From Bacillota bacterium (lineage in GTDB: Bacteria > Bacillota_A > Clostridia > Peptostreptococcales > Anaerovoracaceae), in the NCBI GenBank assembly GCA_017437925.1, contig JAFRWQ010000116.1, positions 1-12,776 of the forward strand: a stretch of DNA of 12,776 nucleotides, read 5' to 3'. The notes under the pieces were generated by a model. The model made no database searches and was not told the DNA's origin. It saw only the letters and a list, made by a program, of their open reading frames with translations. Below are positions 1 through 12,776 of the stretch, piece after piece. Each line of letters starts with the position of its first letter. Within the stretch, counting starts at the first letter, position 1. The translations under genes and the position numbers were made by a program.

Positions 1-937
1 CGTTGTAGACCTCGGTCGCTATGCAGAGGTCCGGACTTCCCATGCCCACGAGCTCGCAGACTATGCGGTCGTCCTTGTTGGTCCTGCCGGGCTTAAGGCC
101 TGCCGCGATCTCGGGCAGCTCGGCCTCGACGCTCTCTTCGCTCACTATGCCTTTTTCGGCCATGACTTTGAAATTGCCCCTGTGCAGGCCCTGGGAGGTG
201 CAGTCCAGATAGATCTTGTCGAACTTCATGGGGACGTCTTCCGAGGTCTCGGTAAAGGAGCCCATGGTGAGGACCAGGCAGCCCTTCTTGCACCAGGCTT
301 CCCTTACCAGGGGAGCGTCGGCGGTGGTGACGGTGATGATTATGTCTGCTCCGGTGCAGGCTTTTTCGTTGCTCTCAAAGGTCTTTACTTCGAAGCCTCT
401 TCCTTCGAAATCTGCGGCGAACTTTTCTCTGGCTTGCGGTTTGATATCGCATATCCTCAGTTCTTTGATCTCGTGTCTTAAGAGTATGCACTCGACCACG
501 AAGTGGGCCTGCTGGCCCGCTCCTATGATGGTCAGCACGTCGGTGGAGGCCGCCAGGTACTTGATAGCTATGGCGGGCTGGGCGCCGGTCCTGGCGTCGG
601 AGATCCAGTCTCCGCAGACCAGGGCTCTCAGATGGCCGTCGTGGGGATCGATGAGGCAGATGTTGCTGCGTATGAAGGGCATGCCCTTCTTCGGGTTGTC
701 GCTGTATCCTCCGACCAGCTTGAGCCCCGATGAATCAAGGGGATGCAGGTATGAGGGCATGGAGTTGAACCAGCCGTTGACCCCCAGGCTGCTCATGTCG
801 GTCGTGATCTTGGGGGGCATTACGACCAGGCCTTCTCCGTGCCATTTCCAGGTCTTTTCGACGCAGTCTATGGCCTTGTCCAGGCTCATGTGCTTTTTGA
901 CCTGCTCGTTGGTTATGATCGCGCTTTTGAATTTCAT
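1..937 (-). CDS. Ornithine cyclodeaminase / mu-crystallin family protein (C-terminus cut by window edge)
   Basis: The reverse strand reads openly from an ATG at 937 to the window edge, giving 312 residues; the family is usually about 320-330, so only a few residues are missing. A GGAGG sits at 947-951, nine bases before the start. The N-terminal half carries family landmarks: K73 in GLKLVGGY, the substrate-binding-like GDWISDARTGAQ (R116), then a Rossmann fold with IIGAGQQAHF (GxGxxA, residues 138-146). The later ADIIITVTTADAPLV segment is also typical. Family members use NAD(P) to deaminate or reduce amino acids: ornithine to proline, ketimine reduction, or alanine dehydrogenation. The exact substrate cannot be read from the sequence. 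It is divergent from a GntR/FCD regulator and an MFS transporter, which fits an inducible catabolic locus in the cytoplasm. Family call is strong; ornithine specificity is not claimed. Confidence 0.9.
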   Translation of the reverse strand, partial: MKFKSAIITNEQVKKHMSLDKAIDCVEKTWKWHGEGLVVMPPKITTDMSSLGVNGWFNSMPSYLHPLDSSGLKLVGGYSDNPKKGMPFIRSNICLIDPHDGHLRALVCGDWISDARTGAQPAIAIKYLAASTDVLTIIGAGQQAHFVVECILLRHEIKELRICDIKPQAREKFAADFEGRGFEVKTFESNEKACTGADIIITVTTADAPLVREAWCKKGCLVLTMGSFTETSEDVPMKFDKIYLDCTSQGLHRGNFKVMAEKGIVSEESVEAELPEIAAGLKPGRTNKDDRIVCELVGMGSPDLCIATEVYN

Positions 938-998
938 TTATTGATACCTCCGTTCTGATGAATACCAGAATTGTATTATTATATTATCAGACAATATG

Positions 999-1045
999 AC
1001 AAATCGCAATAACTATTATAAAGTTGACTTTATTGCAAAATTTGT
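999..1045. promoter_or_regulatory. Candidate operator: long imperfect inverted repeat
   Basis: The left arm is ACAAAT-c-GCAATAA (999-1012) and the right arm is TTATTGC-aaa-ATTTGT (1030-1045), so thirteen bases match in inverted orientation. A second, differently centred dyad, ATAAAG-TTGA-CTTTAT (1018-1033), lies inside it and overlaps the candidate rightward -35. ATTGT/ACAAT half-sites also occur at 970-974 and 991-995. GntR-family regulators often bind such dyads in the gap beside their own gene, so autoregulation plus control of the divergent gene is likely. The binding itself is inferred. Confidence 0.5.
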
Positions 1046-1061
1046 ATATTTTTTAATAGAA

Positions 1062-1080
1062 GGGCCTGCGGTTAAGGCCC
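1062..1080. repeat. Short inverted repeat in the regulator leader
   Basis: GGGCCT (1062-1067) and AGGCCC (1075-1080) are perfect arms around a seven-base loop. A GC-rich stretch with two GCCGGC copies follows (1094-1106). There is no T tract directly after the stem, so this is not a standard terminator. It could be an mRNA leader structure. Confidence 0.35.
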
Positions 1081-1137
1081 CCGGGAAGCGGCGGCCGGCT
1101 GCCGGCGCTTTTCCTGCTTTTCGGAGGCTCAGTTCCT

Positions 1138-1833
1138 ATGAAAGATATAAAACCAATTCCCAACAAGACTAATACCGATCTGGTTTCGGAGCAGCTGCAG
1201 GAGCTCATACTCGGAAGGCACTATCCTCCCGGGAGCCGGCTTCCGATAGAAGCTGACCTGGCTGCTAAATTCCGGGTGTCCAGAAGCACCATCAGAGAGG
1301 CTTTAAAGGGCCTTCAGGCCTCAGGCATACTGGTATCGACGGCGGGGAAAGGCACTTTCGTCTCCGATACGGCCCTCATGAGCATCCAGCTCTCCAGGTT
1401 CAACAAGATGCTGATCTCCACGGAACAGGTGAAGGACCTGGTGGAGCTTCGCTACGCCCTGGAACCCGAAATGGCAAGGATAGCTGCCCTGCGCCGGACA
1501 GATAAGGATATAGATGCCATGAGAAGCTGCATAGACAGCATGCGCACCACCGAAGACAGAGACGTGCTCCTTCAGTACGGCCACGATTTTCATCGGGCGG
1601 TCTGCAAATCGACCCACAACAGCATGATGACGGCCCTTCATTACTCCATCTCCAACCAGCTGCTGATGCTGCGCCGCATGGACTTTCTGACCCTTGAGGT
1701 CTACCTCAGCGGCATCGACGAACACCAGAGCATACTGGACGCCATCATAGATGGTGACGGGGAAAGAGCCGAAATGATGATGAAAAAGCATCTCGAAAAG
1801 GACTACGGCCAGTATCTCAACGGCATCTGCTGA
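1138..1833 (+). CDS. GntR family transcriptional regulator, FadR/FCD subfamily
   Basis: A 231-residue protein with a GGAGG ten bases before its ATG. Residues 12-76 are a winged helix-turn-helix of the GntR type: LILGRHYPPGSRLP, then VSRSTIREALKGLQASGI as helix-turn-helix and wing GKGTFV. Residues 96-225 match the helical FCD ligand domain, with DFHRAV near 150, EHQSILDAI near 195 and KKHLEKDY near 216. In metal-binding FCD proteins an Asp sits four residues before the first His. Here that place is Gly148, while H152, H196 and H218 remain, so metal or ligand binding may differ. The regulator lies between a divergent cyclodeaminase-like gene and an MFS transporter with which it probably shares a transcript. 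It likely responds to a small carboxylate or amino acid and binds the dyad upstream. Confidence 0.93.
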   Translation: MKDIKPIPNKTNTDLVSEQLQELILGRHYPPGSRLPIEADLAAKFRVSRSTIREALKGLQASGILVSTAGKGTFVSDTALMSIQLSRFNKMLISTEQVKDLVELRYALEPEMARIAALRRTDKDIDAMRSCIDSMRTTEDRDVLLQYGHDFHRAVCKSTHNSMMTALHYSISNQLLMLRRMDFLTLEVYLSGIDEHQSILDAIIDGDGERAEMMMKKHLEKDYGQYLNGIC

Positions 1834-1838
1834 TATAA

Positions 1839-1853
1839 GCAGGCTTCGCCTGC
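1839..1853 (+). promoter_or_regulatory. Hairpin directly before the transporter start
   Basis: GCAGGC-TTC-GCCTGC is a perfect six-base-pair hairpin in the 24-base gap between the regulator stop and the transporter ATG. It occupies the place where a ribosome binding site would be expected, and no Shine-Dalgarno match is visible. It has no T tract and so is not a terminator. It may affect translation of the transporter or coupling to the upstream gene. Confidence 0.4.
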
Positions 1854-1857
1854 GGCA

Positions 1858-3081
1858 ATGAAAGCGCATATGGACGTAAACGTGAGCAATAAATACCGCT
1901 ATTCCCTGGTCGCGGCAGGACTGATGATAATGGTTACCCAGTTCTCCATCAGCGTGAACTGTTTTCCAATATTCATCATCCCGGTATGCAATTCCCTGGG
2001 CTTCGCAAGAGGCGTATATTCCTGGACCCAGAGCTTCATATCCCTGGGCTCGGTGCTGGCGTCTCTTCTCAGCGGCAGGCTTTACGGGCGCTTCGGCATA
2101 GTAAAGGTCATGAGAGTGACGGCGGTGGCCGCCACCGTCCTCTTTTTCGTTCAGAGCTTCGCCTCGTCCATCCCGGCCTTCTGGTTCCTCAACCTGATCA
2201 TAGGTTTCTGCAACACCCTGTCCACCGCCATGCCCCTGGCCCTTCTCATAGGGGATCTTTTCACCGAAAAGCGCAACACCGTAATAGGGGTCGTCATGAT
2301 GGGCAGCGGCTTCGGGATCTCCATATTCAATAAATTGTCCAGCACCTTCATCACAGCCTATGGCTGGAGAACGGCCATGCGCCTTCTGGGCGCCATGATG
2401 GCCGGCTTTTCCCTGCTCAATTATTTCGCTCTCATAAAAGACGTGAAGGCACTCGAAGGGGAGGGCGTCACCGTCGAAAATCCCTCAAATACCCTTGAAA
2501 AGCCCGAATCCTTCTTTACCCCGCGAAGGACAGCCATAGCCCTAACCTGGGCCGTGATAGCCATCTCCGCCGACGCCCTCTGCAGCACCCTGACTCCATA
2601 TCTTCAGGACATAGGTTTCAGCCAGGATTTTGCGGCTTCCGTGTACTCGGCGGGCATGCTGACCATGGCGGCCGGCAAGATACTGCACGGCATGATCATA
2701 GACAGGTGGGGCGTCAGGGTAAGCAATACCGTGATGCTGCTTACCGCGATCATGGGAGGGATAGGCACCATTACCTTCCGCTCGGTGTATTCGGCCATAC
2801 CTGTCTGCGCCGGGATGCTCTTCGTGACTTCTTTGGGCGTTGTCGCGGCTCCGGCCCTTGCCGAAGCTATTGGAGGACAGAAGAACAAAAAGTATTTCGT
2901 CGGCAAGATCTCAGCCTTCATGAGCGTCGGCTACATGATAGCCCCCCTGATCTACGGCGGCGTCTATGACAGGACAGGGTCCTATCTTCCCGCCTACTAC
3001 GGGGCGATCGTCATGCTGGCTTTAAGCCTTGCCGCGGTACTGGCGCTGCTGCCCAAAAAGACCGGGAGCGGGGCGCTTTAA
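1858..3081 (+). CDS. MFS transporter, oxalate/formate antiporter-like
   Basis: A 407-residue polytopic membrane protein with about twelve hydrophobic helices in two halves joined by a polar loop at residues 195-223. MFS motif A is visible after helix 2 (SGRLYGRFGIVKV, 72-84) and again in the second half (GMIIDRWGVRV, 278-288). Length and style match the major facilitator superfamily. The start region and loops resemble the oxalate/formate antiporter (OFA)-type carboxylate carriers, although the substrate is not readable. The ATG at 1858 is 24 bases after the regulator's stop and lacks a visible ribosome site; ATG 1870 is an alternative. Being adjacent to a GntR regulator and an amino-acid dehydrogenase-type enzyme, it probably imports the substrate of that enzyme. 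Confidence 0.85.
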   Translation: MKAHMDVNVSNKYRYSLVAAGLMIMVTQFSISVNCFPIFIIPVCNSLGFARGVYSWTQSFISLGSVLASLLSGRLYGRFGIVKVMRVTAVAATVLFFVQSFASSIPAFWFLNLIIGFCNTLSTAMPLALLIGDLFTEKRNTVIGVVMMGSGFGISIFNKLSSTFITAYGWRTAMRLLGAMMAGFSLLNYFALIKDVKALEGEGVTVENPSNTLEKPESFFTPRRTAIALTWAVIAISADALCSTLTPYLQDIGFSQDFAASVYSAGMLTMAAGKILHGMIIDRWGVRVSNTVMLLTAIMGGIGTITFRSVYSAIPVCAGMLFVTSLGVVAAPALAEAIGGQKNKKYFVGKISAFMSVGYMIAPLIYGGVYDRTGSYLPAYYGAIVMLALSLAAVLALLPKKTGSGAL

Positions 3082-3135
3082 AACCGCGGTCCGGATACTT
3101 TTTCATGTAAAAATGCGGAAATGCTCCGCGATCTG

Positions 3136-3144
3136 TGGTATAAT
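3136..3144 (+). promoter_or_regulatory. Extended -10 promoter for the DUF3830 gene
   Basis: TGG-TATAAT is a perfect extended -10 element. No good -35 is seen. In its place is a short dyad, GCGGA-AATGC-TCCGC (3115-3129), which could be an operator. Transcription would begin near 3151, leaving a leader of about 36 bases before the ATG at 3187. Confidence 0.65.
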
Positions 3145-3186
3145 CTGAACGACCTACCGTTAACACAGCAAGAAAAGGATAAAAAT

Positions 3187-3603
3187 ATGGAACATCTTAA
3201 GATCACTGCAGGACCTTATACCTTCATAGCAAAACTTGAAAAGGAGAATGCCCCCAAGACCTGCGAAGCCTTCTGCGAGAGGCTTCCCTTCAAAAGCAAA
3301 TTCGTCCACGTCCGCTGGAGCGGAGAGGCCGTCTGGGCTCCTCTGGGCGACTACAAGCTTGGCGTGGACTACGAGAACCACACCTGCTACCCCTCGAGGG
3401 GAGACGTGCTCTTCTACATAGGAGGCATAAGCGAGACCGAGATCATCATGGCCTACGGAAGCTGCGCCTTCGCCAGCAAGGTCGGTCTTCTCGCCGGAAA
3501 CCATTTCCTCACCATAGTAGAGGGAATGGAAAACCTTGAAAAGCTGGGCAAGGAGTGCCTCTGGAAGGGCGCCCAGGAAGTGGTCTTCGAAAAGTACGAC
3601 TAG
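3187..3603 (+). CDS. DUF3830 family protein (cyclophilin-like fold)
   Basis: A 138-residue soluble protein. I chose ATG 3187, preceded by AAGGA at 3175-3179, because the longer in-frame start at 3121 lies upstream of the TATAAT promoter and so would not be transcribed from it. The sequence has the hallmarks I associate with DUF3830: KITAGPYTFIAKLEKENAPKTCEAF, HVRWSGEAVWAPLGD, YPSRGDVLFYIGGISETEI, and FASKVGLLAGNHFLTIVEG. The family has a cyclophilin-like beta-barrel fold, but its biochemical role is not established. Members tend to sit beside amidohydrolase, transporter and dehydrogenase genes for amino-acid or pyrimidine-like compounds. Here the neighbours are an MFS carrier, a GntR regulator and a cyclodeaminase-like enzyme. 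The gene has its own promoter and terminator. Confidence 0.82.
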   Translation: MEHLKITAGPYTFIAKLEKENAPKTCEAFCERLPFKSKFVHVRWSGEAVWAPLGDYKLGVDYENHTCYPSRGDVLFYIGGISETEIIMAYGSCAFASKVGLLAGNHFLTIVEGMENLEKLGKECLWKGAQEVVFEKYD

Positions 3604-3627
3604 TTATATATCATATCCCAAAAGCTT

Positions 3628-3666
3628 ACGGGCTTTCGGCATGCGGGCCGAAGGCCCGTTTTTTTT
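3628..3666 (+). terminator. Strong intrinsic terminator after DUF3830 gene
   Basis: A thirteen-base-pair stem (arms 3628-3640 and 3647-3659, one T-G wobble) with a six-base loop is followed by eight T residues (3659-3666). It closes the first region and isolates it from the next operon. Confidence 0.93.
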
Positions 3667-3731
3667 ATGGCATAGATGATAAATGTTCATAATGATAACA
3701 ATAAATAGTATATCCGATAAAGAAATATTAG

Positions 3732-3760
3732 ATGACAAATATCAGGCAATAATGTATAAT
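3732..3760 (+). promoter_or_regulatory. Promoter of the small membrane-protein operon
   Basis: ATGACA (3732-3737, five of six matches to TTGACA) and TATAAT (3755-3760, perfect) are separated by exactly 17 bases. The upstream 3667-3731 stretch is AT-rich. Transcription would start about 3767. This rules out the in-frame ATG at 3762 as the first gene's start. Confidence 0.85.
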
Positions 3761-3806
3761 TATGAAATCAAAATGTGAACGATGGTTAGCAAGGAAAGGA
3801 ACACCC

Positions 3807-3971
3807 ATGAAAGATCTGCTTATAGGCATAGCGACCCTCATAGTAGCCCTGATAATCATAGGCACCCTGATCCTGGGCAACGGCAACGGCACCCTCCAGA
3901 CCGTCATGAGCAACAAGGTCTCAGAGGGCATCGAGTCGGTCCAGAATCTGGAGTTCAAGACCAATCCATGA
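3807..3971 (+). CDS. Small single-helix membrane protein 1 of 4 (pseudopilin-like)
   Basis: A 54-residue protein starting MKDLLIGIATLIVALIII, with one N-terminal transmembrane helix (about 3-23) and a short polar tail carrying GNGNGTLQTVMSNKVSEGIESV. The start at 3807 is supported by AAGGAAAGGA at 3791-3800 and by the promoter position. There is no signal peptidase site and no Gly/Glu prepilin-peptidase signature, so it would stay anchored by an uncleaved N-terminal helix. It is the first gene of a four-gene operon whose products share this opening. Size and shape recall Flp/pseudopilin subunits or small membrane scaffolds, but I do not recognise a named family. It ends in an ATGA overlap with the next gene. 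Confidence 0.75.
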   Translation: MKDLLIGIATLIVALIIIGTLILGNGNGTLQTVMSNKVSEGIESVQNLEFKTNP

Positions 3972-4102
3972 AGGACCTGGTAGTCGTCATAGCGCTGCTG
4001 GTTCTGGGAGTGATACTGGCAAGGCTCATACTGTCCCCCGACGGGCTGATGGGAGCCGCGAGAAGCCTCTTCACTAACCAGATACAGTTTCTCGCTCAGT
4101 AA
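3968..4102 (+). CDS. Small single-helix membrane protein 2 of 4
   Basis: A 44-residue protein, MKDLVVVIALLVLGVILARLI followed by a short amphipathic tail ending in NQIQFLAQ. Its ATG overlaps the previous stop (ATGA), which implies translational coupling. The first 20 residues closely parallel the preceding protein and the two that follow, suggesting duplication or assembly through a common helix. The gene is short, but the conserved opening, the coupling and the lack of gaps in the operon make it credible. No family is recognised. Confidence 0.7.
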   Translation: MKDLVVVIALLVLGVILARLILSPDGLMGAARSLFTNQIQFLAQ

Positions 4103-4117
4103 AAAGGCGGGCTTAAG

Positions 4118-4513
4118 TTGAAAAACCTTATCACGGGCATAGCCTGCATGATAATACTGTCGGTCTTCCTGGTGCAGATAAGCTCGTACCAGGCCGCGCA
4201 CAGCAGAATACTCTTCGCAGAGACCGCGGTCAACTCAGCCGTCGAGACCGCAAGGCAGGACGGCTGCTTTACCGCGTCCAATATCGCGAGGCTCAGGGCA
4301 AGGCTTTCAGCGAGGCTGGGCTGCGACCCCTCCGAGATCGTCATAAACGCTTCGTCGGTGCCGGTAATGAGGGGGAGCATGATCGAGTATTCGGTGAGCT
4401 ATCCCCTTAAAGGCATAGTAGCGGCGTCGAAGGCGCTGGGCATAGCTGACGAAGACAACATGACCGTCAACACCATCAGCGGTTCGGCGGCCAGCGAGTA
4501 TACGGGAAGGTAG
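4118..4513 (+). CDS. TadE/pseudopilin-like membrane-anchored protein 3 of 4
   Basis: A 131-residue protein read from a TTG at 4118, chosen because it restores the MKNLITGIA opening shared by the other three and has AAGGCGG about eight bases upstream. One N-terminal helix (3-22) is followed by a soluble domain. The segment SSYQAAHSRILFAETAVNSAVETARQDG, given here only as a pattern, is an Ala-rich helix with a terminal Gly, as in TadE-like or DUF4320-like pilus accessory proteins. A beta-rich part (IVINASSVPVMRGSMIEYSV) and a conserved-looking SYPLKGIVAASKALGI come next. The resemblance is structural and not a firm family match. It lies 15 bases after protein 2 and three bases before protein 4. 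Confidence 0.72.
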   Translation: MKNLITGIACMIILSVFLVQISSYQAAHSRILFAETAVNSAVETARQDGCFTASNIARLRARLSARLGCDPSEIVINASSVPVMRGSMIEYSVSYPLKGIVAASKALGIADEDNMTVNTISGSAASEYTGR

Positions 4514-4516
4514 GCC

Positions 4517-5056
4517 GTGAAGAACATCGTCGTTACCATGGCCCTGCTGGTACTCTGCAGCGCGATACTGCTCTTCCAGATGGACGCCAACATGACCGAG
4601 AGGGAGAGCTACAGGGTGAAATACACCGCTGACCGCATGGCGGGAGCAGCGACCCTCTTCACCGATCCCTACTGGTACGGCAGGGGGAGGATAGTCTTTG
4701 AAGACAGCGAGGGTCTCGGCGCGGCCCTTGAGATATTCAGGGACAATCTGGGCTACGGCGGCTCGTTTTTCCCCGCCCGAAACACTTTCTTTACCGAAGC
4801 CGCCCGGGTGAGCCTCTGCTTTTTCGACGATTCCCTGAACGCCAGGCGCTACGTCAACGGGGCTCTCGCATCCGAGTTTTCCTTCAGCTACGGGGAGGAC
4901 GCGGGAGTTTACGATGCCGCCTTCGCGGGGGACGGCTTCATCATCGAAAAGCCCTGCGTGCTCTGCGTGATAGACGCGGGGAGGCCGGCTCTTAGGGCGT
5001 CCCTTCTCAGCGGCTCGGTCAAAATTGTCAAAAAGAGTATTTACGAATATAAATAA
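4517..5056 (+). CDS. Membrane-anchored protein 4 of 4 with larger extracytoplasmic domain
   Basis: A 179-residue protein read from a GTG at 4517, three bases after the previous stop, with GGAAGG upstream at about 4505-4510. It opens MKNIVVTMALLVLCSAILLFQ, the shared helix, then a basic/acidic helix (ERESYRVKYTADRMAGAATLF) and a mixed domain with DPYWYGRGRIVF, GYGGSFFPARNTFF and two Cys near the end (PCVLCVID). The topology is N-in with the domain outside. Together with its three neighbours it resembles a minor-pilin or surface-complex set. No ATPase, inner-membrane platform or prepilin peptidase gene lies in the window. Function is unknown. Confidence 0.75.
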   Translation: MKNIVVTMALLVLCSAILLFQMDANMTERESYRVKYTADRMAGAATLFTDPYWYGRGRIVFEDSEGLGAALEIFRDNLGYGGSFFPARNTFFTEAARVSLCFFDDSLNARRYVNGALASEFSFSYGEDAGVYDAAFAGDGFIIEKPCVLCVIDAGRPALRASLLSGSVKIVKKSIYEYK

Positions 5057-6334: not shown

Positions 6335-6994
6335 ATGCTGCTCTACTTTCCCAGCTGCAAATTCACGGGGCTGAGGCCCGAAATATCCCTGAAGGTCCAA
6401 AGCTATATGAAAAGCCGCGGAGCAAAGATCGCGGGCTGCTGCAGGCAGGGCTTTGGGCTGCCCGAAGCGGGGGATATTGCCGTCACCGTCTGCGAAAGCT
6501 GCAATTTAATTATCTCTGAGAACCGGCCGGGCCTTGAGCTCATGAGCCTTGCAGAATTCATAGACGCAGACGAAAACTTCGTCTTCCCCGATCTCGGCGG
6601 GGAAATGATCACCGTCCAGGACTGCCTGAGGGCCAAAAACAGGCCGAAGGAGCGGGCCGCGGTAAGAAGCCTTCTTCGCAAAATGAACTTTGAAGTCGTT
6701 GAGCTTGAAGGATATGACGGCCCCGAAGACGCTGAGGCAAGGAATTTCGACGGCGCCTGGCTTTACGCTCCCATGAACGCGGATAACCTTGCCCTTGCTC
6801 CCAAAAGCTTTTCAAAATATAATAATATGGTAACCCTTCTTCCCCCCGAAGAAGCGGAGCTTAAGCTCGGGGCTTACTGCAAACGCTTTGAGACCGAAAA
6901 GGTATGCTGCTACTGCAACACCTGTCTTGCCGGCCTTGAAAAGGGCCTCGGCGGGGGAAGGGCTTTTCACATAACCGAGCTCGTCTTTAAATAA
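6335..6994 (+). CDS. Cysteine-rich CCG-motif Fe-S protein, HdrB/HdrD-like, with degenerate second motif
   Basis: A 219-residue soluble protein with eleven Cys. The start ATG follows GGAGGG closely. The first half has FPSC (Cys8), GCC (Cys35-36) and VCESCN (Cys53, Cys56), i.e. C-x26-CC-x16-CxxC, matching the CCG cysteine-rich domain of heterodisulfide reductase-type subunits, except that the Gly after CC is Arg. The second half starts like the second motif, with TVQDCLRAKNRPKERAAVRSLL (pattern; Cys97), but where CCG is expected there is EGYDGPED. It ends with CCYCNTC (Cys191-197). In the known family two motifs hold noncubane iron-sulfur clusters, so here one cluster may be lost or altered. 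It is 58 bases upstream of a sigma factor with no terminator between, so it may be co-transcribed. The role, redox or sensing, is inferred. Confidence 0.65.
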   Translation: MLLYFPSCKFTGLRPEISLKVQSYMKSRGAKIAGCCRQGFGLPEAGDIAVTVCESCNLIISENRPGLELMSLAEFIDADENFVFPDLGGEMITVQDCLRAKNRPKERAAVRSLLRKMNFEVVELEGYDGPEDAEARNFDGAWLYAPMNADNLALAPKSFSKYNNMVTLLPPEEAELKLGAYCKRFETEKVCCYCNTCLAGLEKGLGGGRAFHITELVFK

Positions 6995-7052: not shown

Positions 7053-7610
7053 GTGTCCGATGACCTGCTGTATCAAAAATACCTGGCCGGAGACCAATCG
7101 GCCGGCGATGAGCTGATGTTCAGGTACGGCGACATGCTCACAGCCTACCTGGACGGCTTCCTTCACAACGCCCATGACGCCGAAGACCTCATGCTCGACT
7201 GCTTCACCGTCATACTGGTGAACAAGCCCAAGATCGCGGAAGGCTGCTTTAAGGCCTACCTCTTCAAGGTGGCGAGAAACAAGGCCAACAGCCTGTGGAA
7301 GACCAGGTTCAGACGCCGGGAATTCAGCCTGGAAGATGAACCTGCCGAGGCTCTTTCGGCGCTGGATCCGTCCCCCGAAGACGGAATGATAAAAAACGAG
7401 CGCAGCGCCGTTCTTCAGCGCTGCCTTAAGCGCATAGCCCCCCAGTACCGGGAGGCCCTGTGGCTGGTATACATGACCGGCCTCAGCTACAAAGACGCCG
7501 CGGCGGTGCTGGGCTGCGGCGCGAAGAAGGTGGAGAACCTGCTGAACAACGGCAAGGCGAGGCTGCGCCTGGAACTTGAGAGAGAGGGTATCACCCATGC
7601 GGACATATGA
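7053..7610 (+). CDS. ECF-type RNA polymerase sigma factor
   Basis: A 185-residue protein starting at GTG 7053, with GGAGG at 7041-7045. Residues 5-85 match sigma region 2: LAGDQSAGDELMFRY, HDAEDLMLDCF, then KAYLFKVARNKA. Residues 115-175 match region 4, with LSYKDAAAVLGCGAKKVENLL as helix-turn-helix. Regions 1.1 and 3 are absent, as usual for extracytoplasmic-function sigma factors. It directs RNA polymerase to a small set of promoters. It overlaps the next gene, which encodes a small membrane protein that is the natural candidate for its anti-sigma factor, and it shares the run with a PrsW protease. No autoregulated promoter could be recognised. Confidence 0.93.
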   Translation: MSDDLLYQKYLAGDQSAGDELMFRYGDMLTAYLDGFLHNAHDAEDLMLDCFTVILVNKPKIAEGCFKAYLFKVARNKANSLWKTRFRRREFSLEDEPAEALSALDPSPEDGMIKNERSAVLQRCLKRIAPQYREALWLVYMTGLSYKDAAAVLGCGAKKVENLLNNGKARLRLELEREGITHADI

Positions 7611-7932
7611 ACAGCGAAAAGAAGAGCTCCACAGCAGGATGAAGGCCATGAGGCGGACGAAAGCCCGCCGCAGGTACGCGCTGCTGAGCGCCTCCGCCGG
7701 GGCCGCCTGCCTGGCCGTTACCATAGGTCTCGCTCTCTTTATCGCGGGCACTCCCATATCCGACCCATCCGTGGTGTCCGAAGGCGTTTCCGCCAGCATA
7801 TTCGCTTCCGGAGCCCTCCTCCGATACGCGGTCATCTCGATACTCGCATTCACTTTGGGGGCGCTTTTTACCGTATTCTGCTTCCGTCTGCGGGACCATC
7901 TGAAGGAGAGGGACGATGATCGACATAATTGA
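7597..7932 (+). CDS. Two-helix membrane protein, candidate anti-sigma factor
   Basis: A 111-residue protein. ATG 7597 is preferred over an upstream TTG at 7576 because it has GAGAGAGGG at suitable spacing; it overlaps the sigma gene end by 14 bases. The N-terminal 26 residues are strongly basic and helical (YEQRKEELHSRMKAMRRTK). TM1 is about 27-51, an external loop 52-74, TM2 75-97, and a charged tail follows. There is no HxxxCxxC zinc anti-sigma motif. A paralogue at 9289-9639 shares LHxxMxAMRRxK. Position directly after an ECF sigma factor and upstream of PrsW suggests that the basic helix binds the sigma factor and that the helices are protease substrate. This is an inference. The family seems to be common but uncharacterised beside sigma factors in gut Clostridia. 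Confidence 0.75.
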   Translation: MRTYEQRKEELHSRMKAMRRTKARRRYALLSASAGAACLAVTIGLALFIAGTPISDPSVVSEGVSASIFASGALLRYAVISILAFTLGALFTVFCFRLRDHLKERDDDRHN

Positions 7933-8530
7933 TAACGGGACCCAGATCGCCGTCCTGCTGATCTGCGCCGCAGTGACCCTTTACAGGGCCGCCGTTTGGC
8001 ACAGCAGGACCTGGACCCTCGCGTTCTTCTTCTTCGGGGTCTGGGCCATGGGCGATATCTACTGGATGGTCTGCTTGATGTTTTACGGCGATTCCCCCCA
8101 GATATCCGTCGTATCGGATCTGAGCTGGTACGCCACCTTCATCTTCCTCTACCTGCTGCTGAGGCGCACCGATCCTCCGGAGGAGATGGGGAAGCCGGGC
8201 CTGCTGCCGTGGCTGGGCGCGGTCTTTGCCGTCGCCATGTCGGTATTCTTCATGCGCTGGGGCGAGATATTGAACAATCTGTTCTACGCCGGCTTTATGA
8301 GCCTTATTCTTTTCGCGTCCATACGCAGGCTGCAGGACAAAAGCATTGCGGCAAAGTACCGCTTCCTTCCGCTGGTGTCGCTGATCTACTGCCTGCTGGT
8401 GTACTGCCTCTGGACGGCCTCGTGTTTCTGGAGCGACGAGGTTCTGATCCATCCGTACTACATATTCGATCTTCTGATCACCGCAAGCTTTTTCTTCTTC
8501 CTCGCCGCGGTGAGAAAGGCGGCGGAATGA
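7916..8530 (+). CDS. Seven-helix membrane protein of unknown function
   Basis: A 204-residue polytopic protein with ATG 7916, AAGGAGAGG at 7903-7911, and a 17-base overlap with the previous gene. About seven hydrophobic segments are visible (roughly 9-27, 33-56, 66-82, 97-115, 120-135, 150-168, 182-198), with short loops and a basic tail. Aromatic-rich helices (FFFFGVWAMGDIYWMV; PYYIFDLLITASFFFFLA) stand out. No enzymatic motif is recognised. Tight coupling to the ECF/anti-sigma-like pair and PrsW suggests it is a signal-receiving or regulatory membrane partner. It ends with an ATGA overlap to PrsW. Confidence 0.75.
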   Translation: MIDIIDNGTQIAVLLICAAVTLYRAAVWHSRTWTLAFFFFGVWAMGDIYWMVCLMFYGDSPQISVVSDLSWYATFIFLYLLLRRTDPPEEMGKPGLLPWLGAVFAVAMSVFFMRWGEILNNLFYAGFMSLILFASIRRLQDKSIAAKYRFLPLVSLIYCLLVYCLWTASCFWSDEVLIHPYYIFDLLITASFFFFLAAVRKAAE

Positions 8531-9156
8531 ATTATATAGAGAACACCTATATATGCCTGGCCGCGCCGCTGCTTTTGGCCATACTCTGCCTTCGCCGCGA
8601 GGGGAGAAGGGCCCTGGTCTTCCTTCTTGCCGGCATGACTGTCTGCCTGCTTTCGGCCTATGTCAGCACCTATCTTGCGGGCCTTCTTGAAATTGACCTG
8701 GCGACGGCTTCCCACGAGGTCTCGCCGGCGGTTGAGGAGATCATGAAGTCCCTTCCCATGCTGTTCTACCTTCTGGTCTTCGAGCCCGACAAAAGGGCCG
8801 CCATCACCGGCGCCCTGATGATATCGGTGGGATTTGCGACCTTTGAGAACGTCTGCTTCCTCACGTCCTACGGCACTTCTGAGCTCCTGCGCCTTCTGAT
8901 ACGGGGCTTCGGCACCGGGGCCATGCACGTTGTCTGCGGCATGATAGTCGCCGTCGGCCTCTTTTATCTCTGGGACCAGGTCTGGCTGCGGGTCGTTGGA
9001 GCCTTCGCTCTGCTCTGCTTTGTTATAACCTTCCACGCGGTCTTCAACGTATTCGTCAACCAGTCCGGCGCCGTCTTCTGGATAGGCAGCATGATACCCC
9101 TCACGCTGGTCGGCGTGTATCTTGCGGTCTTTCGCAAAAAGATGGACCTGTGGTAG
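8527..9156 (+). CDS. prsW-like: PrsW-family intramembrane metalloprotease
   Basis: A 209-residue membrane protein starting at ATG 8527 in an ATGA overlap with the previous gene. It shows the PrsW/CPBP-related signature in order: SPAVEEIMKSLP with Glu70-Glu71 and Lys74; GFATFENVCF with Glu107-Asn108; RGFGTGAMHVVCG with His134; and TFHAVFNVF with His170 and Asn174. These glutamates and histidines are the metal-binding and catalytic positions of the family. Around eight helices are predicted. In Bacillus subtilis PrsW makes the first cut in anti-sigma RsiW, releasing SigW. Here it sits in one operon with an ECF sigma factor and a small membrane protein, unlike in B. subtilis. The symbol reflects family only. 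Confidence 0.88.
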   Translation: MNYIENTYICLAAPLLLAILCLRREGRRALVFLLAGMTVCLLSAYVSTYLAGLLEIDLATASHEVSPAVEEIMKSLPMLFYLLVFEPDKRAAITGALMISVGFATFENVCFLTSYGTSELLRLLIRGFGTGAMHVVCGMIVAVGLFYLWDQVWLRVVGAFALLCFVITFHAVFNVFVNQSGAVFWIGSMIPLTLVGVYLAVFRKKMDLW

Positions 9157-9172: not shown

Positions 9173-9193
9173 GCCCCTTCGGGGGCTTTTTTT
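9173..9193 (+). terminator. Intrinsic terminator after PrsW
   Basis: GCCCC-TTCG-GGGGC is a perfect hairpin with a UUCG tetraloop (9173-9186), followed directly by seven T residues. It closes the sigma/PrsW run. A smaller GATGC/GCATC dyad sits just upstream (about 9156-9170). Confidence 0.95.
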
Positions 9194-9243
9194 ATTGCCG
9201 CAATAAAATTTAAAAACGCTTAGTTTTTTTTCGAAAAACCGAC
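9190..9243. repeat. Cluster of AT-rich palindromes before the paralogue gene
   Basis: Three neighbouring dyads are seen: TTTTATTG-CCG-CAATAAAA (9190-9208, perfect eight-base arms), AAAAAC-GCTTA-GTTTTT (9212-9228) and TTTTT-CG-AAAAA (about 9227-9238). AATTTAAAAAC (9207-9217) recurs at 9657-9667 before the next gene, and AAAAACC occurs at 9234-9240 and 9662-9668. They could be operators or promoter parts. No clear sigma-70 or ECF -10 was identified. Confidence 0.45.
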
Positions 9244-9288
9244 ACTTAATGAGTGAAAGACATTTTCGGGAAGGAGGGATGTCCGGCG

Positions 9289-9639
9289 ATGAAAGCAGAA
9301 GAAAGGGTCACCGCGCTGCATGAGAAGATGGATGCCATGCGGCGCAGAAAGGAGATCCGTAAGACCCGGATCATCGGAGCGGCCAATGCATCGCTGGCCG
9401 CGTGCCTGGTCTTTCTAATATTCGGAGGAGGCACGGCTCATTTCGGCGGCACAGCCGGGATGTACAGCGGAGCGACCATGCTCTTTGAGAACGCGGGAGG
9501 CTATGTCCTCCTGGCCGTCGGAGCCTTTATGGCGGGCGTCATAGCCACGGTCCTGATCAAAAGAAGTCAGAAAATGAGAAAGGAACTGTCCGAAGAAGGG
9601 CAGAGGTCCGCCGAAGCCGGAGAAAAAGACGGATCCTGA
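9289..9639 (+). CDS. Paralogue of the two-helix anti-sigma-like protein
   Basis: A 116-residue protein. ATG 9289 is chosen because AAGGAGGG lies ten bases upstream; the in-frame GTG at 9253 has no ribosome site. N-terminal residues EERVTALHEKMDAMRRRKEI form a basic helix like that in the 7597-7932 product. TM1 is about 28-48, then a Gly-rich loop (GGGTAHFGGTAGMYSGATMLF, pattern) and TM2 70-90, followed by a longer charged tail (KRSQKMRKELSEEG). It lies after the PrsW terminator, without its own sigma factor, and 103 bases before a large secreted-protein gene with no terminator in the gap. It may be a second anti-sigma/PrsW client or an accessory to the secreted protein. Confidence 0.78.
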   Translation: MKAEERVTALHEKMDAMRRRKEIRKTRIIGAANASLAACLVFLIFGGGTAHFGGTAGMYSGATMLFENAGGYVLLAVGAFMAGVIATVLIKRSQKMRKELSEEGQRSAEAGEKDGS

Positions 9640-9742: not shown

Positions 9743-12700
9743 ATGAACACAAGTACCAGGAAACCTTTAAGCAGGGCTATCGCCGTGTTTGTGTGCGCGG
9801 TGCTCGTATGCGGCAGTCTGAGCCCCATGCTGGCGCAGAAGGCCTTCGCGGAGGACAGCAGCTCATATGCCAACGGGGAATCTATCTTTAACCGCATCGA
9901 GAATATGGCAAGCCAGGCCCCGGATGATTTTGACGTACAGAAAGATCCCTACGGCCACGGCATGAACAAGGAATTCATGCTGGCGACCCAGGACGAGCTC
10001 TTCGTTATTCAGGGCAACGGCACCGAAGCTTCAAACCCCGTTAAGGTCTATGATAATCTGAAGCAGGCCAACGAGTCCTCGTCACCCCTCTCGGAAGCTG
10101 AGAGCGTGACCAACCTGAGCAGCATCACCAACGATCTCTCATATGTCCAGATGGTGAGCTTCGATCCGGACAAGACCGGACGCAAGGACCACATCGCCGT
10201 ACTGGGCGTGAATTACTGGTATGACGGCAACACCGGCAATGCATATACGACCCTCAGCGTCTTTGACAAGAACGGAAACAGAGAGTTCTCAAAGACGGTG
10301 GGCAAAGCCGAATGGATGGAGCACCACGAGGGCGGAAACGACGATATGAGGGATTTCAACGCCATGAACTTCCTCTCCATAACCGCCGGCGATTTCAGGG
10401 GCACCGGAAGAGACTCCATCGTAATCTGGCAGTGCGTGGACAATAACAATTACGGCCTTTCCGAGTGGATCAAGGATCCCGATACGGGCACATATACATG
10501 CCCGTCCACCGATAAATATGACAATAACAAATATTATGTCGGTGAAAAAGCTCTGCTCCACGACAAGTATCCCGATATATACGCGACCTGGCTCAGCAAA
10601 AACAACAACCAGAACTGGGTCGACAACAAGCTCCACTGCCAGCTCAGGAGCGGCGATATCAACGGAGACGGACTGGACGATCTGATAGTCCTCAGCTACG
10701 TGAACAGAGTCACCCACGACTATCTCAATTCGTACAAGATGTATTCGCAGGTGACAGACCTTTACCGTCCCTGCCTTGCGGTACGCTACGGAGCGAAGAG
10801 CGCCGCGAATATGGTGAGCAGCTATGATACAAGGTACGGTATCTGGAAAGCCGACAACAGTGACAGGTCCCGGTGGACTTCCATGCTGGCCGGCGGTGTG
10901 GCCGTAGGCGATATAGACGGAGACGCTGTGGACGAGATAGTAGTCAGCGGTTTCAAGAACACCATCGAGGGAGAGAGCGGGAAGGAAGTGGACGATCCCT
11001 ATACCATCACCAAATCAAAAATGGTGACCGCGATCTTCGACGGAACGGGCGGAAGCCTGACCCAGCTGATGTTCAACTCGGATTTTGACACCAATGGCTG
11101 GACAAAGGGCGCCGACATAGGCGGTCTGTACGTCGCCGATACGGAGGGCGGAGATCAGTCCTGGCAGAGGACCGCGGTTGAGACCGTCGCGATCAACGGC
11201 AAAGCCAAAGCGAAGAATATATTCATCAACGGTGACCTTTACGCTTACAACGCTACAGCCAGATCGATCACCGTGGTCTATCAGCCGGCATATTTCTCCG
11301 AGACCGATCAATACTTCGGCAACTATGACGGCAATTTAGGCATGAGGGTGGCCGAGACATATTTCCGCTCCGTGGCGGTGGGCGTTTTCGACGGAAACGA
11401 AAACGACAGGGAGCAGATAGTCTACGTTCTCGGCGCCACTAAAAACGGGGATCCCGACAACGCCCTCTTCAAGATAGGCATGATGGGCGGAGTGTTTACG
11501 GACAGTCAGGGCCTGGCCGTGGATGAAGCGGTGTCCTGGTACAGCACCCTGGACGAACCCATGGAGAAGACCGTTTATCCGTCAGGCGGCAGCGCTTCCG
11601 CCAACGTCTGGGACCGTCTCAATTTCGCCGTCTGCGCCTGGGACTGCGACTGCGACGGTCTCCATGCCAAATACGTGCGCAAGGAATTCGTCTACACCGA
11701 TCCCCAGGTCATAGCGATCCTTCAGGCTCCTCCGTATTTCGAGGAGCTCAGGGGACAGACGGTGGGAAGCACTTCATATACCATCTCCAATTCCTACAGT
11801 TACGGCATCGGGACCGGCAAGAGCACTTCCTTCGGCATAGGCCTCGCGGTGGATCTGGGATCGCCCTGCTGCAAGATAAACTTCGGGGTAGACGCCAGGC
11901 AGGATTGGTCCCAGAGCTTCTCAAACTCTTTAACTACGACAGACGAATACACCTTTACAGCTGAAGGAGAAGACCAGGTCATAGTGAAGCGGACCCCGAT
12001 CACGATCTACATCTACCAGGTGGAGACCTTCGATGAATGGTCGGACGATAATACTTTCGCGCTTTCCTTCCCGGGCGTGTCCGCTTACGAGACTCTGAAC
12101 GCCAGGGACTACAACGATTACGTCGAATACTACAACAACAAGTATCAGGAACTGGCTGTGGAAGCCAACGCCCAGCGCGCCGCCAACGGGCTCGATCCGA
12201 TAAAGGCCGAGGATATCCCCCATCTCGATCTTCTTGAGGACCAGTGGCTGTTCAACGAAGGCGACCCCTTCTCCTACATGAGAAAGACCAGTGTCGTGAA
12301 CGGCCGCACGGTGCTTCAGTCTTCGCCCAACACCTTCGGGGTCGGCGAGAGCTCTACTTCATATTCCTGGAGCCAGGAGCACTCCCACGAGACCGAGGAG
12401 ACCTATGCCTTCGGATTCAGCTTCGACATCACTTTTATGCTGGGGGGCAAGGGCTTCGGATGGGAGATATTCGGAGGAGTGCATTCCTCCCTTGAGTACA
12501 TGAAGGAGTACAGCACCTCGGAGTCCAAGAGCGTCGGACAGGGCGTCAGCTGCGAGGTCGCGAACATGAAGCTCTCCGATCTTGAGGAGATAGGCATAAG
12601 CCCGGAGGCCGCTTCGGAGTACGGTTTCCAGTACCAGATGGTGAGCTGGCCTTCCAATCTGCCCAACGATTTCGATCTCGACGCCTACATCGCCGACAAC

Positions 12701-12776
12701 GATTACGACGATGAAGCTCTCTACGAAGAGCTCAACATGGAAAAGCTGGAGCAGACTCCCATCTACGGCTACATGC
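9743..12776 (+). CDS. Large secreted protein with FG-GAP/VCBS-like beta-propeller and Ser/Thr-Gly-rich beta modules (3' end outside window)
   Basis: At least 1011 residues from ATG 9743, open at the right edge. Residues 1-36 are a Sec signal peptide (basic start, hydrophobic AIAVFVCAVLVCG, cleavage at AFA|ED). Calcium-type Asp-rich FG-GAP/VCBS repeats recur: FDPDKTGRKDHIAVLG (140-155), DFRGTGRDSIVIW (217-229), DINGDGLDDLIVLSY (305-319), DIDGDAVDEIVVSG (390-403), FDGNENDREQIVYVLG (549-564) and a degenerate DCDCDGL near 634. The spacing suggests a beta-propeller of about seven blades, as in integrin-like extracellular proteins. Residues 672-760 and 862-945 are rich in alternating Ser/Thr, Tyr and Gly (STSYTISNSYSYGIGTGK; TSYSWSQEHSHETEETY) with FG-anchored strands, possibly tandem modules resembling beta-barrel pore or adhesin domains. 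No enzyme motif is seen. It is probably surface-exposed or exported; function is unknown. Confidence 0.85.
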   Translation, partial: MNTSTRKPLSRAIAVFVCAVLVCGSLSPMLAQKAFAEDSSSYANGESIFNRIENMASQAPDDFDVQKDPYGHGMNKEFMLATQDELFVIQGNGTEASNPVKVYDNLKQANESSSPLSEAESVTNLSSITNDLSYVQMVSFDPDKTGRKDHIAVLGVNYWYDGNTGNAYTTLSVFDKNGNREFSKTVGKAEWMEHHEGGNDDMRDFNAMNFLSITAGDFRGTGRDSIVIWQCVDNNNYGLSEWIKDPDTGTYTCPSTDKYDNNKYYVGEKALLHDKYPDIYATWLSKNNNQNWVDNKLHCQLRSGDINGDGLDDLIVLSYVNRVTHDYLNSYKMYSQVTDLYRPCLAVRYGAKSAANMVSSYDTRYGIWKADNSDRSRWTSMLAGGVAVGDIDGDAVDEIVVSGFKNTIEGESGKEVDDPYTITKSKMVTAIFDGTGGSLTQLMFNSDFDTNGWTKGADIGGLYVADTEGGDQSWQRTAVETVAINGKAKAKNIFINGDLYAYNATARSITVVYQPAYFSETDQYFGNYDGNLGMRVAETYFRSVAVGVFDGNENDREQIVYVLGATKNGDPDNALFKIGMMGGVFTDSQGLAVDEAVSWYSTLDEPMEKTVYPSGGSASANVWDRLNFAVCAWDCDCDGLHAKYVRKEFVYTDPQVIAILQAPPYFEELRGQTVGSTSYTISNSYSYGIGTGKSTSFGIGLAVDLGSPCCKINFGVDARQDWSQSFSNSLTTTDEYTFTAEGEDQVIVKRTPITIYIYQVETFDEWSDDNTFALSFPGVSAYETLNARDYNDYVEYYNNKYQELAVEANAQRAANGLDPIKAEDIPHLDLLEDQWLFNEGDPFSYMRKTSVVNGRTVLQSSPNTFGVGESSTSYSWSQEHSHETEETYAFGFSFDITFMLGGKGFGWEIFGGVHSSLEYMKEYSTSESKSVGQGVSCEVANMKLSDLEEIGISPEAASEYGFQYQMVSWPSNLPNDFDLDAYIADNDYDDEALYEELNMEKLEQTPIYGYM

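Follow-up and report, generated by a model that had tools for sequence, protein, structure and literature searches.

We report a conserved gene cassette in a stretch of 12,776 nucleotides from a Bacillota bacterium of the Anaerovoracaceae (GenBank assembly GCA_017437925.1, contig JAFRWQ010000116.1; the whole stretch is called the window below). In this cassette the genes for an extracytoplasmic function (ECF) sigma factor (SIG), a small membrane protein (SM), a seven-helix membrane protein (TM7) and a PrsW-family intramembrane protease (PRSW) are followed by a promoter-like element, a paralogue of the small protein (SM2) and an open reading frame (ORF) for a giant protein (BIG). Gene content, gene order and the element with its placement are conserved among Bacillota loci, SM and SM2 are homologous to each other, and TM7 is homologous to a domain of histidine kinases. 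We propose that the cassette constitutes a switch of sigma factor, seven-helix transmembrane (7TM) sensor and PrsW that would control giant, variable surface proteins, a proposal that we regard as about as likely as not.

A first-pass annotation, made from the letters of the window and a list of its ORFs, had described four overlapping genes, and their positions and overlaps of 14 (SIG/SM), 17 (SM/TM7) and 4 bases (TM7/PRSW) agree with that description (Table 1). The first gene encodes an ECF sigma factor, as annotated. Both Pfam sigma regions score above cut-off (region 2, 24.8 bits against 24; region 4_2, 42.5 bits against 25.7), TIGR02937 is matched with 65.8 bits against a cut-off of 42.9, with the sigma2 and sigma4 regions both present, and the solved relatives include sigma-H, SigE, CnrH and SigW. 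SM and TM7 had no family match above cut-off when the window proteins were compared with profile libraries, in agreement with the earlier statement that the small protein carries no zinc anti-sigma domain, and its two long helices were returned by a structure model (pLDDT 72.3, pTM 0.39). The annotated unit ended at PRSW (position 9156), which is too early, as SM2 and the promoter-like element, which is conserved too, are part of the unit, in most cases together with a long secreted ORF.

Table 1. Features of the cassette in the window.
Feature	Position	Strand	Description
SIG, ECF sigma factor	7053..7610	+	185 aa, GTG start; Pfam PF08281 and PF04542 above cut-off
SM	7597..7932	+	111 aa; two long helices predicted; N-terminal EQRKEELHSRM; possible sigma inhibitor or PrsW substrate
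TM7, probable sensor	7916..8530	+	204-aa seven-helix membrane protein; structure model and hybrid-kinase homology
PRSW, PrsW-family intramembrane protease	8527..9156	+	209 aa; PF13367 and invariant catalytic-type residues
Terminator-like hairpin and T run, 3' of the regulator genes	9173..9193	+	Similar structure in 16 of 29 sequences, the window included
Two-block promoter-like element, probable SIG target	9216..9259	+	Conserved; in the window GCTTAG, then GACACTTAATGAGTGAA
SM2, SM paralogue	9289..9639	+	116 aa; 29% identity to SM (BLASTP), profile-profile probability 99.7
BIG, giant protein	9743..12775, runs off the window	+	Signal-peptide-like N-terminus (by eye), FG-GAP repeat; alignable ORFs in 7 loci

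Loci were collected from genome contigs with a TM7 profile, and all linkage counts are therefore conditional on TM7. The TM7 alignment (A1) holds 37 rows, namely the window and 36 of 120 listed relatives (192 found), and retrieval with three short patterns yielded 52 stretches and 28 loci. By source name all 28 loci are of Bacillota type (Clostridia, Lachnospiraceae, Oscillospiraceae, Solobacterium, Butyrivibrio and others), and a ruminant gut site is named as the source for 10 of them. PRSW is located directly 3' of TM7 in every one of these loci, with an overlap of 4 bp in 27 and of 14 bp in L026. An intact SIG lies upstream in 26, the exceptions being L018, which starts inside TM7, and L022, where a remnant is left (profile E 2.4e-4). 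SM is found between SIG and TM7 in 21 of the 27 assessable loci, 19 of which also have the 14-bp SIG-SM overlap. Full-length SM is missing in L015, L020, L021, L022, L023 and L028; its position is taken by an SM2-type protein in L020, and a short SM-like frame is left in L023 and L028. SM2 follows PRSW at a distance of 92-388 bp in 23 of the 28 loci. This gene order cannot be attributed to chance, because it recurs in loci whose TM7 is 37-62% identical to that of the window.

A second sample, in which the TM7 profile was searched against 150 genomes of the family of G012 (E<=1e-10), gave 12 TM7 matches in 10 genomes. Eight of these are cassettes in 7 genomes, one being L012 of the first set; three lie in long frames (852-1252 aa) and one in a frame cut by a contig end (L097). 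SIG and PRSW are present in all 7 further cassettes. Four of them have a full-length SM; L090 has a truncated one of 62 aa, and L094 and L096 have none. SM2 occurs in 5/5 cassettes with enough sequence beyond PRSW (the contigs of L090 and L093 stop 92 and 228 bp behind it), and in the 4 loci that could be judged its 3' neighbour is a long ORF beginning with a signal-peptide-like stretch (L091, L094, L095, L096). The co-occurrence of PrsW, sigma factor and the small protein across genomes, to which the first-pass annotation had pointed as a check, is thus a conserved linkage with SM in most loci. Two loci of the first set are of interest in themselves. L018 harbours a second, diverged cassette (914-3784) directly after the first PRSW, with profile E-values of 1.9e-61 for SIG, 5e-4 (marginal) for TM7, 2.5e-51 for PRSW and 7e-26 for SM2, and with no separate SM found there. 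L022 (Lachnospiraceae bacterium AD3010) has its SIG remnant at 8784-9005 with TM7 and PRSW still open, a natural loss.

The model of TM7 is a seven-helix bundle (pLDDT 86.6), as the earlier description of the protein had it. Its fold matches go to rhodopsins and GPCRs alike and are weak and unspecific, and helix 180-203 has, by inspection, its only lysine near the C-terminal end, not in the middle of helix 7 as in retinal-binding proteins; a rhodopsin identity was rejected on these grounds. Three long-frame proteins (L075, L076, L077) align to nearly the full TM7 profile. The genome search gave them E-values of 3.7e-19, 1.8e-15 and 2e-11, and a direct comparison with the profile gave 57-70 bits. 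Two reversed sequences and two unrelated membrane proteins used as controls stayed below 0 bits over the full sequence, with 5.0 for the best single domain. HisKA domains were found in L075 and L077, the two of these frames that were scanned. These hybrid-type kinases, at 1495-3615 of L075 and 1-2130 (reverse strand) of L077, have an N-terminal 7TM domain without a Pfam name at E<=0.01. As judged from sequence, TM7 is a stand-alone version of the N-terminal domain of hybrid histidine kinases, and because of this homology it is probably a sensor, which lends support to the sensor candidacy assigned to it at first reading.

PRSW matches PF13367 with 39.9 bits (cut-off 23.5), and E70, E71, K74, E107, N108, H134, H170 and N174 are invariant in 29/29 aligned rows, so that the EExxK, EN, H and HxxxN residues are intact as annotated. 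On NF033739, the PrsW equivalog model of NCBI with a curated cut-off of 225, its score is 22.1 bits, and a search by sequence found no solved relatives.

The homology of SM and SM2 includes a similar N-terminal segment, EERVxxLHxRM in the alignments (A3, 19 of 22 rows of SM; A4, 24 of 26 rows of SM2; near-duplicates and over-long frames were dropped). Four proteins, the window's own included, were listed by a single-sequence search with SM and 96 by a search with the SM/SM2 alignment; among solved structures only two chance-level rows were obtained for SM by sequence. Among the 43 SM/SM2 members there is a weak, sub-threshold likeness to CU044_5270 (E 1.5e-4, 21.7 bits against a cut-off of 100), and 3 of the 43 show one to Sigma_reg_N (best 0.057). 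This resemblance is faint, since unrelated families score as well (ThrE, 6.2e-5). SM was named the likely anti-sigma factor by the first-pass annotation, which is doubtful: its distribution rules it out as a universal one, since its full-length form is missing from 6/27 assessable loci of the first set and 3/7 of the second (two absent, one truncated). Of the cassettes that lack a full-length SM, 7 can be viewed together with their surroundings, and all 7 have an SM2-type protein (L015, L020, L021, L023, L028, L094, L096); it can therefore be argued that SM2, or either member of the family, restrains the sigma factor. SM2, or SM and SM2 together, would be a better anti-sigma candidate than SM alone.

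The element upstream of SM2 has the consensus GGTT(A/C)G..TTT, then approximately GGACAC..TATA..GTGAA, and starts about 73 bp before SM2 in the window. The spacing between GGTT(A/C)G and GACAC is nearly fixed at 17-18 nt, which is within the range of sigma70-type promoters. In a leave-one-out analysis the matrix scored 17.9-42.7 in 22 of 26 SM2-bearing sequences, and the highest scores in 390 kb of mononucleotide-shuffled sequence were 9.4, 15.9 and 14.2 in three rounds; the scores of the 14 seed-picked training sites are partly favoured, and the other 8 of the 22 lay outside the training, one of them (L009) being nearly a copy of L006. All 45 matrix rows listed, shifted registers of the same sites included, start 69-168 bp upstream of SM2. 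A strict pattern had 10 matches in 10 of 28 genomes (about 71 Mb by listed size) and none when reversed. Nine of these are in cassettes and the tenth (L033) precedes a second SM2 and an FG-GAP-type giant on another contig. With a sequence model (R1) all 22 hits at E<=1e-3 in the 28 genomes precede SM2 and/or a long secreted ORF, namely at 20 cassette sites (including L042, the second cassette of G025), L033 and L065. R1 was built from 21 sites including L033 and the window, so that cassette hits were mostly expected; L042, L058 and L065 lie outside it; 150 first-look candidates were scored per genome of 252-1922, and weak sites may be missed. In L065 (E 7e-4) the element precedes a long secreted ORF without SM2, and neither L033 nor L065 has a regulator gene in the stretch fetched. 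At E 0.0078, R1 further marks L058, a module of SM2 and a secreted ORF that lies on a different contig of G008. Weak hits (E>1e-3) are mixed, and those at L059, L066, L067 and L061-L063 mark no SM2. When R1 was applied to the 150-genome draw (one family, stricter filters, 42 candidates scored per genome), 11 genomes had a hit at E<=0.01, among them G012 (3.2e-7), G051 (9e-4, no TM7 match) and G039 (0.0016). The G039 site (L092) has a similar -10 block before a 1920-aa giant upstream of SIG, with a sub-threshold matrix score of 9.9.

The element may most economically be regarded as the promoter recognized by SIG. Upstream of SIG, scores for sigmaA-like promoters are slightly higher than in shuffled sequence (mean 9.75 against 8.70, n=28; p<=0.05 in 7/28), and upstream of SM2 they are not raised (8.67 against 8.94, n=26). 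A sigmaA promoter for SM2 was considered, as GGACAC is readable as a -35 box, and rejected, as there is no conserved -10 box and the scores equal those of shuffles. The regulator genes may thus be transcribed from a housekeeping promoter and the operon of SM2 and the giant gene from the element.

The ORF after SM2 starts like a secreted protein, as judged by eye, in 19 of 23 loci; of these 19 ORFs, 12 are longer than 1,000 aa and 7 are cut by the end of the contig. Pfam domains above cut-off were FG-GAP (window, L007, L026), I-set Ig (L004), collagen (L007, L012), InlB-type repeats (L005, L006, L019), GLUG (L015), BspA LRR (L014), zinc phospholipase with Ig (L003), Calx-beta (L017) and beta-helix (L021). 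No match above cut-off was present in L016, L023 and L028, and the survey left out L001, L009 and L011. BIG of the window can be aligned with ORFs from 7 loci (24-30% identity). It matches best in L026, whose PRSW has the lowest identity to that of the window (56%) among the loci, which suggests that the cargo evolves out of step with the regulators. In L010 (10695-17658) a PPIC-type foldase with a signal-peptide-like stretch, itself above the Pfam cut-off, is placed between SM2 and a 1855-aa Ig protein, which suggests a helper in cargo folding. In L024 (10907-16107) a radical SAM-SPASM gene comes after SM2, and an ORF that looks ABC transporter-like by eye lies farther along; the target there may be concerned with peptide maturation.

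In the mechanism that we propose, TM7 would sense an extracytoplasmic or membrane signal and gate PRSW, the gene of which it overlaps by 4 bp. PRSW would then cleave SM, SM2 or both, two-helix proteins that would hold SIG by the N-terminal helix they have in common. The freed sigma factor would transcribe from the conserved element, giving rise both to SM2, a fresh inhibitor and hence negative feedback, and to a giant, lineage-variable secreted or surface protein. Several observations weigh against such a mechanism. An anti-sigma domain was not recognized in SM by profile match, the 43 SM/SM2 members gave weak hits only, and the cytosolic N-terminus of SM is short, about 25 residues by eye. 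TM7 and PRSW are kept in several cassettes in which SM is absent or truncated, as is the sigma factor except in L022. No secreted giant directly follows SM2 in 4 of 23 loci, where its place is taken by an AMP-binding enzyme (L013), a radical SAM protein (L024) or sugar transferase-like proteins (L025, L027; the Pfam run covered L013, L024 and L025). The element does not resemble a textbook ECF promoter, and its downstream block holds an imperfect dyad, CAC-N7-GTG. At the matrix threshold the element was not found in L018, L023, L026 and L028, and a strong hit was obtained in only 1 of the 7 cassette genomes of the 150-genome draw (G012, a site contained in the model).

Alternatively, SM and SM2 could be membrane adaptors or export helpers, SM for TM7/PRSW and SM2 for the giant protein, in which case TM7/PRSW, or an anti-sigma factor encoded elsewhere, would hold the sigma factor. 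A membrane-bound sigma inhibitor usually adjoins the gene of its sigma factor, SM2 and the element occur without an adjacent giant gene in Butyrivibrio (L025, L027, L042), and a giant ORF with the element occurs without SM2 in L065 and, as a weaker case, in L092, all of which makes this reading rather unlikely. The export-helper role of SM2 stays alive because SM2 travels with the giant gene: in L033 and L058 the two stand with the element and without any regulator gene in the part of the contig fetched. The losses of SM beside a retained TM7 and PRSW, and the finding of no anti-sigma domain above cut-off among the families listed for SM and SM2, also fit adaptors.

The element itself might be the operator of another regulator or an RNA leader, SIG driving other genes instead. 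We consider this improbable, given the near-fixed spacing of its two blocks and the confinement of R1 hits at E<=1e-3 to SM2 and long secreted ORFs; a scan of the window returned no Rfam family at gathering score, and no other recurring regulator gene was noticed in the loci by eye. The dyad and the unlikeness of the element to a textbook ECF promoter would suit an operator, and among the 45 matrix rows listed none lies upstream of SIG. That SM is the dedicated anti-sigma factor of a self-contained four-gene unit is most doubtful of all, for despite its frequent 14-bp overlap with SIG, its conserved N-terminal helix and the faint family likenesses described above, SM is not universal and the unit reaches SM2 and the giant gene. 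From the idea of a self-contained signalling unit, the linkage of sigma factor, 7TM protein and PrsW and the sensor role are upheld, and the end at PrsW and SM as anti-sigma factor are not.

The preferred reading, a switch of sigma factor, 7TM sensor and PrsW, shares its ECF sigma factor and PrsW-family protease with the sigmaW/RsiW/PrsW system of Bacillus subtilis, in which PrsW makes the first cut in RsiW (PMC6066255, PMC5358783). It differs from that system in the linkage of prsW to sigma, 7TM and SM genes, in that no RsiW-type zinc anti-sigma domain was found, and in the low score of PRSW on the PrsW equivalog. The anti-sigma complex YhdL/YhdK, which restrains the ECF sigma factor sigmaM of B. 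subtilis (PMC6827917), is a further point of comparison. Neither PrsW nor a 7TM sensor is known to belong to the sigmaM genes. RsiV and the DUF4179 anti-sigma factors of Firmicutes likewise regulate ECF sigma factors from the membrane; signal peptidase is the enzyme that cuts RsiV (PMC6066255), and one SM relative (P0125) is named DUF4179 by its source. DUF4179 was, however, not among the best 25 of 152 families for the 43 SM/SM2 members. A precedent for a short sigma-binding segment, consisting of two helices, is given by the class II anti-sigma factor CnrY (PMC7406223). Its partner CnrH is among the solved relatives of SIG. To our knowledge neither a 7TM protein nor PrsW belongs to the CnrH/CnrY system. 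The hybrid kinases L075 and L077, from the family of L012, share the domain homologous to TM7, which is fused to HisKA there and stands alone beside PRSW here.

One study, known by title from two reference lists, reportedly ties PrsW to ECF expression in C. difficile. No description of the present gene set was found in open-access titles and the starts of abstracts, a coverage that is incomplete and leaves room for an earlier description. The logic of regulated proteolysis, as suggested by the families involved, would be known already; what is new would be a 7TM sensor of kinase type encoded beside the protease, the duplication of the small proteins and a giant protein as the target. Somewhat more tentatively, we suggest that a stand-alone kinase-type 7TM receptor is dedicated to PrsW and gates it, that the sigma factor of this switch serves one or few targets, namely a giant exchangeable surface protein and the inhibitor SM2 that it induces, and that gut Bacillota combine a portable regulator with swappable cargo in this way.

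Elsewhere in the window, short consecutive ORFs at 3762-5056 have hydrophobic N-termini (MKDLLIG..., MKNLITG..., MKNIVVT...) and are pilin-like by eye. A cysteine-containing 219-aa ORF at 6335-6994, just upstream of the cassette, shows a weak resemblance to one part of a dicluster-binding oxidoreductase, with an E-value of 1e-6 and a score far under the cut-off.

The cassette makes it testable how PrsW receives its cue to cut, since the gene of a probable sensor, the product of which is homologous to kinase N-termini, overlaps prsW by 4 bp in 27 of 28 loci. The sequences further predict a promoter dedicated to giant, repeat-rich secreted proteins. SM and SM2 form a family of small proteins and may represent a new kind of sigma inhibitor; should SM2 be inhibitory as well as induced by the sigma factor, feedback would be built into the circuit.

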